Source: an uncultured marine group I thaumarchaeote
Lineage (GTDB): Archaea; Thermoproteota; Nitrososphaeria; Nitrososphaerales; Nitrosopumilaceae
Assembly (NCBI GenBank): GCA_902566725.1
Contig: CACFJZ010000005.1
Location: 1-35,203 of the forward strand
DNA: 35,203 nucleotides
Reading direction: 5' to 3'
Part shown: one piece after another, positions 27,552-32,280 of the stretch
Layout of the letters: each line of letters begins with the position of its first letter
Position numbering within the stretch: the stretch's first letter is position 1
The notes under the pieces: generated by a model
The model's input: only the letters and a program-made list of their open reading frames with translations
Told to the model about the DNA's origin: nothing
The model's database searches: none
Position numbers and translations under genes: made by a program

Positions 27552-28103
27552 ATGAGTGAAAGTTCACCCGTCAAAGATGCATTATATGCAGAAATTGATA
27601 GAATTAGTCAAGATAAAATTAATGAATTATTACTAAAAAAACAATTTTCAGTAATATTTGAGAATGTGTTTGATAAAGCCATCAACAAAATTAATGAAGA
27701 TATAGATGAAGATGAAAAATTTGGAACGTTAGCAGAAAGTATCACACATTATCTTTTTACAGAAATGCTCATACCCAGTCAACGAAAAATTTCATATGAA
27801 GATGTTGAATTAGATTTAGTTATACCAAATACATTAGAATTAAAGAAGAATCCACAGAATGTGATAATTTTATTATTCATGAAAACATCAGATGTGATTA
27901 AAATCCAAAATAAAATTTCAGAGATTAAAACAATTCAAGAAAAAGATGATAACATATGGGTAATTTCAAAGCGTTTGTTAGAAATTCCACAGAGGTCTTA
28001 TGCGACAGATAAAATCTCATTCGGAAATTTTTTGAGAGATACACAAAGTTTTATTCAAACAAAGAATATGAATAAATTAAATATTTTCAAAACCCAGATG
28101 TGA
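27552..28103 (+). CDS. Conserved hypothetical protein
   Basis: ORF starts immediately after the HMG-CoA synthase stop (TAAATG); family not recognised. Confidence 0.65.
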   Translation: MSESSPVKDALYAEIDRISQDKINELLLKKQFSVIFENVFDKAINKINEDIDEDEKFGTLAESITHYLFTEMLIPSQRKISYEDVELDLVIPNTLELKKNPQNVIILLFMKTSDVIKIQNKISEIKTIQEKDDNIWVISKRLLEIPQRSYATDKISFGNFLRDTQSFIQTKNMNKLNIFKTQM

Positions 28104-28772
28104 AAGATCAACAAAGTTTTGAAAATTTTGAACGTATAAATCAAGATTAAAGGGCTCAGCATAGGGAATTGCACCAAAAACTTTCTCTCCAGTTAAACGA
28201 GAAATTTGCTGACGGAGACTAGGTAATTCATATCCATCAGAGACATTCTGATTTACTAAAAATCCATTAAAATTGAGATTTTTTTGTCGAAAATGTTCAA
28301 AGGTTAACATAAGGTGATTAACACTACCGATTTTAGAACCAGTTACAATTATGGAATTTAATTTTAATTCAGAAATAAGATCAGATACAAAATAATTTTG
28401 TGAGATAGGAGTCATAATACCCCCAATGCCTTCAACAATTACAAGATCATGTTTGGATTCAAGTTCATTGTATGCATCAACCACTTTAGAAATATCTATT
28501 TCCCGATTTAATTTCATACATGCCTCATAAGGGGAAGTGGGTATTTCAAAAAAATATGGATTTATCAAATCTACAGAATCATGTACTCCTGAATACTTGG
28601 TAAGAATTTCAACATCTTCAGAAATAAAATCGTCAGTGGGTTTGTAACCTGAAGCAAATGGTTTCATTACTCCAACGTCTATATTTTTTTTTGAAAGATA
28701 ATTTACAATTCCTGCAACAACACATGTTTTTCCAACATCAGTATCAGTGCCAGTAACAAATAGAGAATTCAT
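28077..28772 (-). CDS. bioD: Dethiobiotin synthetase
   Basis: MNSLFVTGTDTDVGKTCVVAGIVNYL P-loop; VEGIGGIMTPI. Confidence 0.93.
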   Translation of the reverse strand: MNSLFVTGTDTDVGKTCVVAGIVNYLSKKNIDVGVMKPFASGYKPTDDFISEDVEILTKYSGVHDSVDLINPYFFEIPTSPYEACMKLNREIDISKVVDAYNELESKHDLVIVEGIGGIMTPISQNYFVSDLISELKLNSIIVTGSKIGSVNHLMLTFEHFRQKNLNFNGFLVNQNVSDGYELPSLRQQISRLTGEKVFGAIPYAEPFNLDLYVQNFQNFVDLSHLGFENI

Positions 28773-30091
28773 GATAATTTCTTGGATAGAGATTTGATTG
28801 TTTTAATGGTTCCGTCAATTAAGAAATTTAGATCTTTTTGAGATATTGCCAATGGAGGAACTAACATGATGATATTTCCCAATGTGCGGAAGTAAATTTG
28901 GTTTTTTCTACCTTCCTCAAAGACAACTTTGTTGATTGATTGTGAAAATGAGATAGGTTTATTCGATTTTTTATCATGTACAAGTTCAATTCCCATAACC
29001 ATGCCTTTATGTCGAATGTCTCCAACCAAGTCTAAATTATATATATCACCAACTCTAGATTCAAAAATTTTTGAAGTTTTTTGTATCTTGTTAATTAAAT
29101 CGAATTTCTCATACATTTCTAAATTTTTGAGGGATAATGCAGCTGCAGTCGGATTTCCAGTGTAAGTATGACCATGAAAGAGATGCTTCATGTCTGAAAA
29201 TTCACCAAGAAAGGATTCGGTTATTTTTTTTGTAGTTAATGTTGCTGCAAAAGTTTGATAGCCACCAGTGAGCATTTTACCAAATGAAACAATATCAGGT
29301 GTAGAGTTCTGTTTTTTATATTCAATCATAGAACCCAATCTACCAAATCCGGTTGCTATTTCATCAAGAACAAAAAGTACATTATTTTTTTTACATATTT
29401 TGGAAATTTGATTTTGGAAATTTTTTGGATATATAATAACACCACCTGCCATTTGAGCTCCACTTTCCATGACAAATGCAGCAATAGAATCATCTTTTTC
29501 AAGTTTTTCTTCAATTTTAGCCACACATTGCTCCTGGTATTCGTTAACAGTCATTTTTTTAGGAATTCTAAAACCTCGTGGAACAGGAAATTTTAATGTA
29601 GAAAATAGTTTTGAACGGAATTTTGAGAAGAATTCTGGAACATATCCTACAGACATAGCACCAAATGTATCTCCATGATATCCATTTTCCAAAGTAGCAA
29701 TGTTTGTTTTTTTATTTTCACCAATATTACGCCAATATTGTAAAGCAATTTTTAATGCAATTTCCATTGCAGTCGAACCATTATCTGAAAAAAAAGTTGA
29801 GTGCATTTTTGGGTTTAAGTTGATGAGTTTTTTTGATAGATTTTCAGCCGAAGAATGTGTTAGGTTGAATAAAGCAGTGTGTTGGAGAATTTTGGTTTGT
29901 TTAATTATTTCAGACACTAATTCAGATTTTGAGTGACCCCATACATTACACCACATACTAGCAACACCATCGAGCATTTTTCCACCTTTGGAATCATAAA
30001 GCCACATACCTTTCGCAGAAACAATTTCCGGAAATTTTGTCCATTCAGACATTTGAGTATTAGGATGCCATACTGAGCTATCGGATTTCAT
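28769..30091 (-). CDS. bioA: Adenosylmethionine-8-amino-7-oxononanoate aminotransferase (start moved from track 30130 to ATG 30091)
   Basis: WHPNTQMSEW, DGVASMWCNVWGHS, ENGYHGDTFGAMSVG, VLDEIATGFGRLG; TATA-like element 30113-30119 on the minus strand is about 25 nt upstream of 30091. Confidence 0.9.
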   Translation of the reverse strand: MKSDSSVWHPNTQMSEWTKFPEIVSAKGMWLYDSKGGKMLDGVASMWCNVWGHSKSELVSEIIKQTKILQHTALFNLTHSSAENLSKKLINLNPKMHSTFFSDNGSTAMEIALKIALQYWRNIGENKKTNIATLENGYHGDTFGAMSVGYVPEFFSKFRSKLFSTLKFPVPRGFRIPKKMTVNEYQEQCVAKIEEKLEKDDSIAAFVMESGAQMAGGVIIYPKNFQNQISKICKKNNVLFVLDEIATGFGRLGSMIEYKKQNSTPDIVSFGKMLTGGYQTFAATLTTKKITESFLGEFSDMKHLFHGHTYTGNPTAAALSLKNLEMYEKFDLINKIQKTSKIFESRVGDIYNLDLVGDIRHKGMVMGIELVHDKKSNKPISFSQSINKVVFEEGRKNQIYFRTLGNIIMLVPPLAISQKDLNFLIDGTIKTIKSLSKKLS

Positions 30092-30119
30092 ATGTGTCAT
30101 CATTTTTACGAGTAAATAA

Positions 30120-30151
30120 TAGTTAACCACAAAATTAGCATAGGTTAACGC
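30120..30151. promoter_or_regulatory. BirA-box-like operator between bioA and bioB
   Basis: TAGTTAACC-N14-GGTTAACGC; resembles the biotin operator consensus TTGTAAACC-N14/15-GGTTTACAA (7/9 and 6/9 matching half-site positions). Confidence 0.7.
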
Positions 30152-30179
30152 TTATTTACCGAATTTTTTACTTTGGATT

Positions 30180-31160
30180 ATGGAAAATGAAATACAGTTA
30201 ATCCAAAATTGTAAAGAAATGGTACTTAGAAATCAGCATCTTGATGCCAATTTGGTAAACAAACTATTCAATGTAGAAGATAAAATTCTCAGTCAATTAT
30301 CAGATGCTGCAAATGAAATTACACGAACATTTCAAGGATCAAAAATAGATGTAGAACAGTTAGCAAATATTAAGAAAAATTATTGTAGTGAAGATTGTAC
30401 ATTTTGTAGTCAATCAGCATTTTTTGATACAGGTATTGACAAATATCAGTTAATGTCTGCTGAAGAAGTTGTTAGACAAGCTACAGATGCAAAAAATGCA
30501 GGAGCGCATTCATACTGTCTAGTTGCTGCATGGAGAGAGCCATCAAATGAAGATTTTAAGAAGGTGTGTCACATTATTGAAGAAGTTAATGAAAAAGTTG
30601 GAATATCAATAGAATGTAGTTTGGGATTTTTGACTGTACAACAAGCAACAAAATTAAAAGAATTAGGAGTTATTCGATATAATCACAATCTGGAAACAGC
30701 AGAGTCAAAATTCCCTGAAATCTGTACAACCCATACATACCAAGATAGAATTGATACACTTCATACAGCAAGAAAAGCAGGATTAGAATTGTGTACGGGA
30801 GGAATTATAGGAATGGGAGAAACAAGGGCACAGAGAGAAGAATTAGTCCAAGCAATATCCAAGTTGAATCCTGAAGAAGTTACAGTAAATTTACTTGTTC
30901 CATTTCCAGGAACACCGTTAGAACTTCAAACACCATTAAGTTTAGAAGAAATTCTTAGAACATTTGCAGTTTTAAGATTTTTACTTCCAAAAAGCATCAT
31001 TAAAATTTCAGGGGGAAGAGAAGTTAATCTCAATGATGACGGAAAAGAATTACTTCTAAGTGGCGCTAATGGAATTATCAGTGCAGGATATCTCACATTA
31101 GATGGAAATTCCATGCAAAAAGATGTAAAAATGATTAAAGAGATTGATCTTGAAGCCTAA
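30180..31160 (+). CDS. bioB: Biotin synthase (radical SAM)
   Basis: KKNYCSEDCTFCSQSAFF radical SAM CxxxCxxC; CSLGFLTVQQATKLKELGVIRYNHNLET. Confidence 0.95.
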   Translation: MENEIQLIQNCKEMVLRNQHLDANLVNKLFNVEDKILSQLSDAANEITRTFQGSKIDVEQLANIKKNYCSEDCTFCSQSAFFDTGIDKYQLMSAEEVVRQATDAKNAGAHSYCLVAAWREPSNEDFKKVCHIIEEVNEKVGISIECSLGFLTVQQATKLKELGVIRYNHNLETAESKFPEICTTHTYQDRIDTLHTARKAGLELCTGGIIGMGETRAQREELVQAISKLNPEEVTVNLLVPFPGTPLELQTPLSLEEILRTFAVLRFLLPKSIIKISGGREVNLNDDGKELLLSGANGIISAGYLTLDGNSMQKDVKMIKEIDLEA

Positions 31161-32280
31161 ATTTGGCATAATTGAAAAAAAAATTAGCGTAATAAAGAAG
31201 AATAACCTATTACGTAATCTTCAAGATAGTAGAGTTGAGAAACAGTATATTTTTCAAAATGGACAAAAACTTCTAAATTTTTCATCAAATGATTATCTAG
31301 GAATAAAACCAAGTAAAATAAGACATACGCAATTTCAATCAAGTTCCAGACTTGTTTCTGGGAATGACTCTAGTTTTTCAATTCTTGAAAAGAAACTCTC
31401 TAAACATAAATCTCAAGAAAAAACAATAATCTTTCCAACAGGTTACATGGCAAACATTGGAACAATTTCATCAATTGTAGATAAAGAGAGTACAATATTC
31501 AGTGACGAATTAAACCATGCAAGTATCGTCGAGGCATGTAAATTATCTAGTGCAAAGATCAAAATTTTCAAACATAACAATATGGAAGATTTAGAACGAA
31601 AAATTCGTAGCACAAATGGCAAAAAAGTAATCATTACCGAAGGAATATTCAGTATGGATGGAGACTGGTCACAGTTAGATCAAATATCAGAATTAGCAGA
31701 AAAACACGGAATTATTACAATTTTAGATGATGCTCACGGAGATTTTGTTTTAGGTAGAGATGGAAGGGGAACCTCAAATTTTTTTAATGTTGAAAAAAAA
31801 ATTGATTTGTACGTCAGCAGTCTTAGTAAGGGATTAGGAAGTTTTGGAGGATATGCATCAGGTAAAAAAAGTCTAATTGATTTATGTATTAACACATCAA
31901 GGACATTCATATACACATCTGCATTACCGGCGTCTATCAATCAATATTCACTTGACAGATTAGAATTAGATAGAGAATCATATAGAAAAAAATTGTGGGA
32001 CAAAATTAATCTATTTCATAAAAGGCTAGAAGAGATAGAACTACCAACAAATTCAACAAGCCAAATAATTCCAATAGTTATTGGAAAAGAGAAGACAGCA
32101 GTTGAATTTTCAAAATTTTTAAAGAAAAATGGAATATTTGCTCAGGCAATTCGATATCCAACAGTAAAAAAAGGAGAAGCACGAATTAGAATTTCAATAA
32201 CAGGATGGCTTTCAGAAAATGAGATAGAATATTCAGTACAAATTTTAGAAAAAGCTAAGAGAAAGTTTAATCTCAAATAA
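31144..32280 (+). CDS. bioF: 8-amino-7-oxononanoate synthase
   Basis: NFSSNDYLGIKPSK, SSRLVSGNDSSFSILEKKLSK, ILDDAHGDFVLGRDGRG, SLSKGLGSFGGY; TTG start, 17-nt overlap with bioB. Confidence 0.92.
   Translation: MILKPKFGIIEKKISVIKKNNLLRNLQDSRVEKQYIFQNGQKLLNFSSNDYLGIKPSKIRHTQFQSSSRLVSGNDSSFSILEKKLSKHKSQEKTIIFPTGYMANIGTISSIVDKESTIFSDELNHASIVEACKLSSAKIKIFKHNNMEDLERKIRSTNGKKVIITEGIFSMDGDWSQLDQISELAEKHGIITILDDAHGDFVLGRDGRGTSNFFNVEKKIDLYVSSLSKGLGSFGGYASGKKSLIDLCINTSRTFIYTSALPASINQYSLDRLELDRESYRKKLWDKINLFHKRLEEIELPTNSTSQIIPIVIGKEKTAVEFSKFLKKNGIFAQAIRYPTVKKGEARIRISITGWLSENEIEYSVQILEKAKRKFNLK

Follow-up and report, generated by a model that had tools for sequence, protein, structure and literature searches.

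In Escherichia coli, the biotin operator bioO lies between the divergent bioA and bioBFCD units and works together with BirA, and the well-studied BirA regulators are repressors. A comparative study by Rodionov et al. in 2002 is said to have predicted BirA sites of the form TTGTAAACC-N14/15-GGTTTACAA in Eubacteria and Archaea, along with the rule that the DNA-binding helix-turn-helix (HTH) and the site occur together. That work reportedly predates the genomes of ammonia-oxidizing archaea, and we know of no uL3 site in it. To our knowledge, few specific transcription factors of ammonia-oxidizing archaea have known targets. In Bacillus subtilis, BirA binds bioO only in the presence of biotin and ATP and leaves a half-site unbound; the bioO half-site primer holds AGGTTAACAATT and thereby an arm, GGTTAACAA, that is identical to the arm described here (PMC4016012).

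The window analyzed in this study (the whole stretch of 35,203 nucleotides from an uncultured marine group I thaumarchaeote of the family Nitrosopumilaceae) carries a palindrome between its bioA and bioB genes. The locus resembles E. coli bioO in having one predicted operator between back-to-back bioA and bioB and a BirA composed of HTH, ligase, and C-terminal domains. It differs in its archaeal TATA-type promoters, which stand 25 nt from the ATG on either side, in its arms, which read GTTAACC and not as the E. coli half-sites, and in a layout that appears to have arisen by the turning of bioA within the archaeal family. The likeness to the B. subtilis operators of bioO, yhfU, and yuiG lies in the arm shared with the bioO half-site primer, in the Group II ligase, and in the inverted repeat, which is needed for binding in B. 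subtilis and is also present here (PMC4016012). In contrast to the B. subtilis operators, the archaeal one is predicted to serve two divergent operons instead of one, and the promoters are archaeal. Both the signal and the HTH/site rule are those of Rodionov et al. 2002; archaeal BirA boxes were reportedly already predicted then, and the window box would be a further case.

RESULTS

A unique palindrome in the bioA-bioB promoter region

The original prediction described an extended inverted repeat centered at 30135.5 (Table 1), and this repeat was recovered: 15 of the 17 positions of its 17-nt arms pair around a 14-nt spacer, and no other inverted repeat of that quality (spacer, 10 to 20) exists in the window. 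The pattern GTTAACC-N(10-18)-GGTTAAC matched once in the window and in 0 of 100 shuffles, while 0 of 5,000 shuffles of the local 210 bp reached 15/17 arm pairing, which rules out a chance palindrome. Across the entire assembly (792,549 bases, 64% complete), GTWAACC-N(12-16)-GGTTWAC matches only once, at the bioA-bioB site. The core, GTTAACC-N14-GGTTAAC, is close to the BirA box given above; the outer two bases of the window box depart from the canonical sequence (TA/GC) and are canonical in some relatives. The palindrome sits in the promoter region of biotin genes, the neighbors having been confirmed by Pfam.

TABLE 1 Features of the biotin locus (coordinates are those of the window)
Feature	Position	Strand	Remarks
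bioD (AAA_26)	28077..28772	-	Downstream of bioA, same direction
bioA, aminotransferase class III	28769..30091	-	Pfam Aminotran_3, 278.9 bits; start corrected to ATG 30091
Predicted BirA operator plus two flanking TATA-like elements: extended inverted repeat GTAAATAATAGTTAACC-N14-GGTTAACGCTTATTTAC	30112..30159		Center 30135.5; unique in window; arms kept in 19 unique Nitrosopelagicus sequences
Predicted TATA box of bioA(-bioD) promoter, TTATTTA	30113..30119	-	Centered 25 nt before ATG 30091; TTATTTAGT, TTAATTAGT, or TTATTAATA across genus
Left operator arm, GTTAACC	30122..30128	+	GTTAAC part paired in all 19 unique Nitrosopelagicus sequences
Right operator arm, GGTTAAC	30143..30149	+	B. subtilis bioO half-site primer includes AGGTTAACAATT (PMC4016012)
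Predicted TATA box of bioB(-bioF) promoter, TTATTTA	30152..30158	+	Centered 25 nt before ATG 30180; TTATTTA or TTAATTA across genus
bioB (Radical_SAM + BATS)	30180..31160	+	
bioF-like aminotransferase class I/II	31144..32280	+	Overlaps bioB end

Promoter elements and the bioA start

Each arm of the palindrome continues into a TATA-like element, TTATTTA, the center of which lies exactly 25 nt from the A of the respective ATG, as against the approximate 25 nt first proposed for bioA and bioB. The TATA-like positions on both sides of the box are conserved among the 19 unique Nitrosopelagicus sequences. We infer that transcription of both genes starts at or near their ATGs, that is, that the messages are leaderless.

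The automatic open reading frame of bioA starts at GTG 30130, within the palindrome. The suspicion that this start is wrong proved justified: most Nitrosopelagicus relatives have an in-frame stop between the equivalents of GTG 30130 and ATG 30091, on which ground we rejected the GTG start, and ATG 30091 is kept among these relatives while the ATGs at 30103 and 30100 mostly are not. Given these stops and the conserved ATG, the operator lies between the genes and not inside bioA.

The host BirA carries a DNA-binding domain

The sole biotin/lipoate ligase match in the genome is a 333-amino-acid BirA encoded away from the bio locus (G000 C2:52817-53815). It has an N-terminal HTH_11 domain (50.6 bits; cutoff, 25) followed by BPL_LplA_LipB and BPL_C, and it matches full-length BirA structures, including 1bia (E. 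coli) and 3rir, with the HTH region included. Hence, the BirA with an N-terminal HTH that was to be looked for in the same genome is there. Its glycine-rich biotinyl-AMP loop (L001:1222-2220) reads GKGRLDRKW; the counterpart in E. coli BirA is GRGRRGRKW. Judged by its sequence, the archaeal enzyme is a Group II (regulatory) ligase in the terms of Henke and Cronan (PMC4016012). Since the assembly is 64% complete, the genome may encode another bio regulator as well.

Conservation of the box upstream of bioB

The bioB upstream regions were gathered from named genomes and from 250 genomes of the family. In the loci of the named genomes, where a box was called at a score of at least 14/18 with a spacer of 14 to 16, 40 of the 47 related archaeal loci had one upstream of bioB, with the arms kept and the spacer letters drifting; at locus L073, the box is the canonical TTGTAAACC-N14-GGTTTACAA, letter for letter. 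The strict box pattern is present in 156 of the 250 family genomes. Within Nitrosopelagicus, the GTTAAC positions pair in all 19 unique sequences and pairing in the spacer is near chance. With arms retained around a drifting spacer, the bioB box is conserved beyond neutral drift, and the conservation of the palindrome that was anticipated for related genomes holds at bioB in the whole genus and in most of the family.

In the complete sister genome G052, the bio site is the sole site with at most one mismatch. Matches with up to two mismatches number 5 in all, compared to 13 for a reversed control pattern, so this genome shows no excess that would indicate extra BirA targets. Outside the family, a genome from another family of the same order has GTAAACC-N14-GGTTTAC before bioB (L330:1501-1528). 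The bioB box may be older than the family, or it may have been gained separately in the L330 lineage; either would account for this site.

Joint loss of the box and the BirA HTH

An HTH-bearing BirA is general in the family. The HTH is absent or below the cutoff in G005, G017, G019, G041, G161, G244, G245, G246, G247, and G249, its status having been assigned by Pfam plus alignment, and by alignment only for G017 and G244 to G246. The strict box is found in none of these 10 genomes with an HTH-less or degenerate BirA and in 156 of the 240 others (Fisher P = 4e-5, uncorrected for relatedness). On the bioB tree, five HTH changes and four any-box changes were counted, with no independent pair in the opposite direction; a sign test for linked loss could draw on just two well-supported independent pairs, too few for significance. 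The host thus has an HTH-bearing BirA and the site is missing where the HTH was lost, with the exceptions G020, G128, and G132, which retain the HTH and have no clear box at bioB. A genome with only an HTH-less biotin ligase would have spoken against the original prediction; instead, the host HTH is intact and it is the HTH-less relatives that are without the box. Together with the conservation of the box, this supports its reading as a BirA-box-like operator.

Among GC-rich genomes placed in genus g14, no bioB box is seen in G132 (L274), G128 (L279), G146 (L277), and G161 (L294). Of these, G128 and G132 still have the HTH of BirA along with a degenerate box at uL3 (see below); in G161, both have been lost. 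G146, G157, and G164 gave no ligase match.

The divergent layout is restricted to two genera

Most genera have bioD reading leftward and then bioA, the box, and bioB rightward, with bioA and bioB in tandem and the box preceding bioB. Nitrosopelagicus and most of genus g2 have bioA turned round, so that bioD and bioA both read leftward and are followed by the box and the rightward bioB. In the window, a single predicted operator touches both predicted promoters in a divergent bioA-bioO-bioB arrangement. The symmetric two-promoter operator originally proposed is therefore present in the window but confined to Nitrosopelagicus and the greater part of g2. The symmetric layout looks derived, by inversion of bioA, because bioA and bioB point in the same direction in most other genera; it re-creates the arrangement of E. 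coli. In the tandem genera (Nitrosopumilus, Nitrosotenuis, and others), the box ends 8 to 11 nt before the TATA element, about one helical turn further away than in the window.

A second palindrome upstream of the uL3 operon

Outside the window, GTTAACC-N14-GGTTAAC also occurs 47 to 50 nt before the uL3 ribosomal-protein operon in genera g5, g9, g11, g13, and g14 of the Nitrosopumilus clade (e.g., L173:2521-2548, L175:15135-15162, L176:12576-12603, and L172:3821-3848), in many genomes 7 to 12 kb from bioB; uL3 was identified from its sequence and neighbors and not through a family search. All 50 unique uL3 upstream sequences have paired GTTAAC arms and also a paired base at distance 15 from the center, and their spacers drift. 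When eight genomes were scanned (N14, up to two mismatches), every site with at most one mismatch was at bioB or uL3.

In g11 (loci L176, L177, and L337 to L349), no bioB box scored above shuffled sequence in 13 of 13 promoters, with L176 and L177 in agreement, and none did so in G153 and G096. G153, G096, and every g11 genome checked have the box at uL3. The g11 BirA retains its HTH_11 domain (52 to 56 bits) with an almost unchanged recognition helix. Outside g11 and similar cases, loss of the bioB box mostly accompanies loss of the HTH.

The uL3 palindrome is absent from the relatives examined within the genus of the window (G052, G055, G058, and G063), and no uL3 match was found in the incomplete assembly of the window itself. 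Following the TATA box, the uL3 promoter of this genus instead carries one conserved GGTTAACGAC-like element. The uL3 promoters of g1, g2, g16, and g17 (L212 to L216, L218, L219, and L221), which lie outside the Nitrosopumilus clade, share one GGGGTTAACGAC-like element immediately downstream of the TATA box (TATATAATGGGGTTAACGAC).

DISCUSSION

As the conserved arms and the HTH of the ligase suggest, the palindrome between bioA and bioB is very probably the operator of the archaeon's own BirA, which would repress both operons. By analogy with B. subtilis, we infer that BirA binds the site, that binding depends on its ligand, and that the outcome is repression rather than activation. With ample biotin and the carrier protein almost fully biotinylated, BirA would hold biotinyl-5'-AMP and dimerize, each of the two GTTAAC arms receiving one HTH. 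Since the two TATA elements lie directly against the arms, the bound dimer is expected to cover the DNA next to them and to block TBP/TFB in both directions, so that bioB-bioF and bioA-bioD would be shut off together. Depletion of biotin or of its adenylate would make the dimer fall apart, and both operons would be transcribed. This one geometry of repression does not fit all genera, however, because in the tandem genera the TATA element is further from the box.

That spacing is relevant to the sign of regulation. A position about one helical turn upstream of TATA is used by some archaeal activators, and the 8- to 11-nt gap in Nitrosopumilus, Nitrosotenuis, and others would suit a BirA that activates, or acts as a dual regulator, at some promoters by sitting upstream of BRE/TATA and helping to recruit TFB, and that represses only at promoters where box and TATA are in contact. 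We consider this unlikely. Each arm of the window box directly adjoins a TATA element, a placement that favors occlusion, and the BirA of B. subtilis is a repressor (PMC4016012), in line with repression by BirA as the preferred reading.

Conceivably, the palindrome might be bound by a dimeric regulator other than BirA. The classical box has a T immediately outside the arm, where the uL3 sites have C or G, and the uL3 palindrome persists in genomes that have no bioB box. Against this, the arms and the N14 spacing correspond to the BirA consensus, at some loci letter for letter, the lineages with an HTH-less BirA are without the box, and the genus that has the uL3 box and no bioB box keeps the BirA HTH at 52 to 56 bits. 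For the palindrome of the window, another regulator thus appears distinctly improbable. The notion that the symmetry reflects nothing but two mirror-image core promoters (BRE plus TATA) placed back to back draws on the TATA-like outer half of the repeat on both sides and is hardly credible, since the inner arms are conserved and palindromic at N14 where bioA and bioB are in tandem and there is no second promoter, and the palindrome also occurs at uL3, where it serves one gene; we have rejected it.

As for the factor that binds at uL3, BirA is favored because g11 keeps both the HTH and the uL3 box, while genomes elsewhere that lost the bioB box have mostly lost the HTH too; given the outer base that departs from the classical box, another regulator may nonetheless act at uL3. 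Tentatively, and with somewhat more doubt than confidence, we suggest on these sequence patterns that in the Nitrosopumilus clade BirA may also control the uL3 operon, so that the making of ribosomes would be tied to how far the CO2-fixing carboxylase is biotinylated. The uL3 site would then be the last strict BirA box left in g11 and a few other genomes, which would have lost the box at bioB and kept the DNA-binding domain of BirA.

In the literature searched, which included few subscription journals, no paper was found on BirA operators of Thaumarchaeota or ammonia oxidizers, on the re-derived divergent layout, or on a BirA-type box at uL3; a search of the same kind of literature, again with few subscription journals, found no paper linking BirA and ribosomal proteins. 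BirA control of the uL3 operon would accordingly be new.

In summary, the biotin locus provides a concrete candidate regulator-operator pair for ammonia-oxidizing archaea and suggests that a bacterial-type vitamin repressor can work with TATA/TBP promoters. The turned bioA would be a clear case of a second operon brought beside an existing operator. The carbon fixation of these marine archaea uses a biotin enzyme, and if the uL3 site also belongs to BirA, the synthesis of ribosomal proteins in these abundant organisms would be under the control of a biotin sensor.
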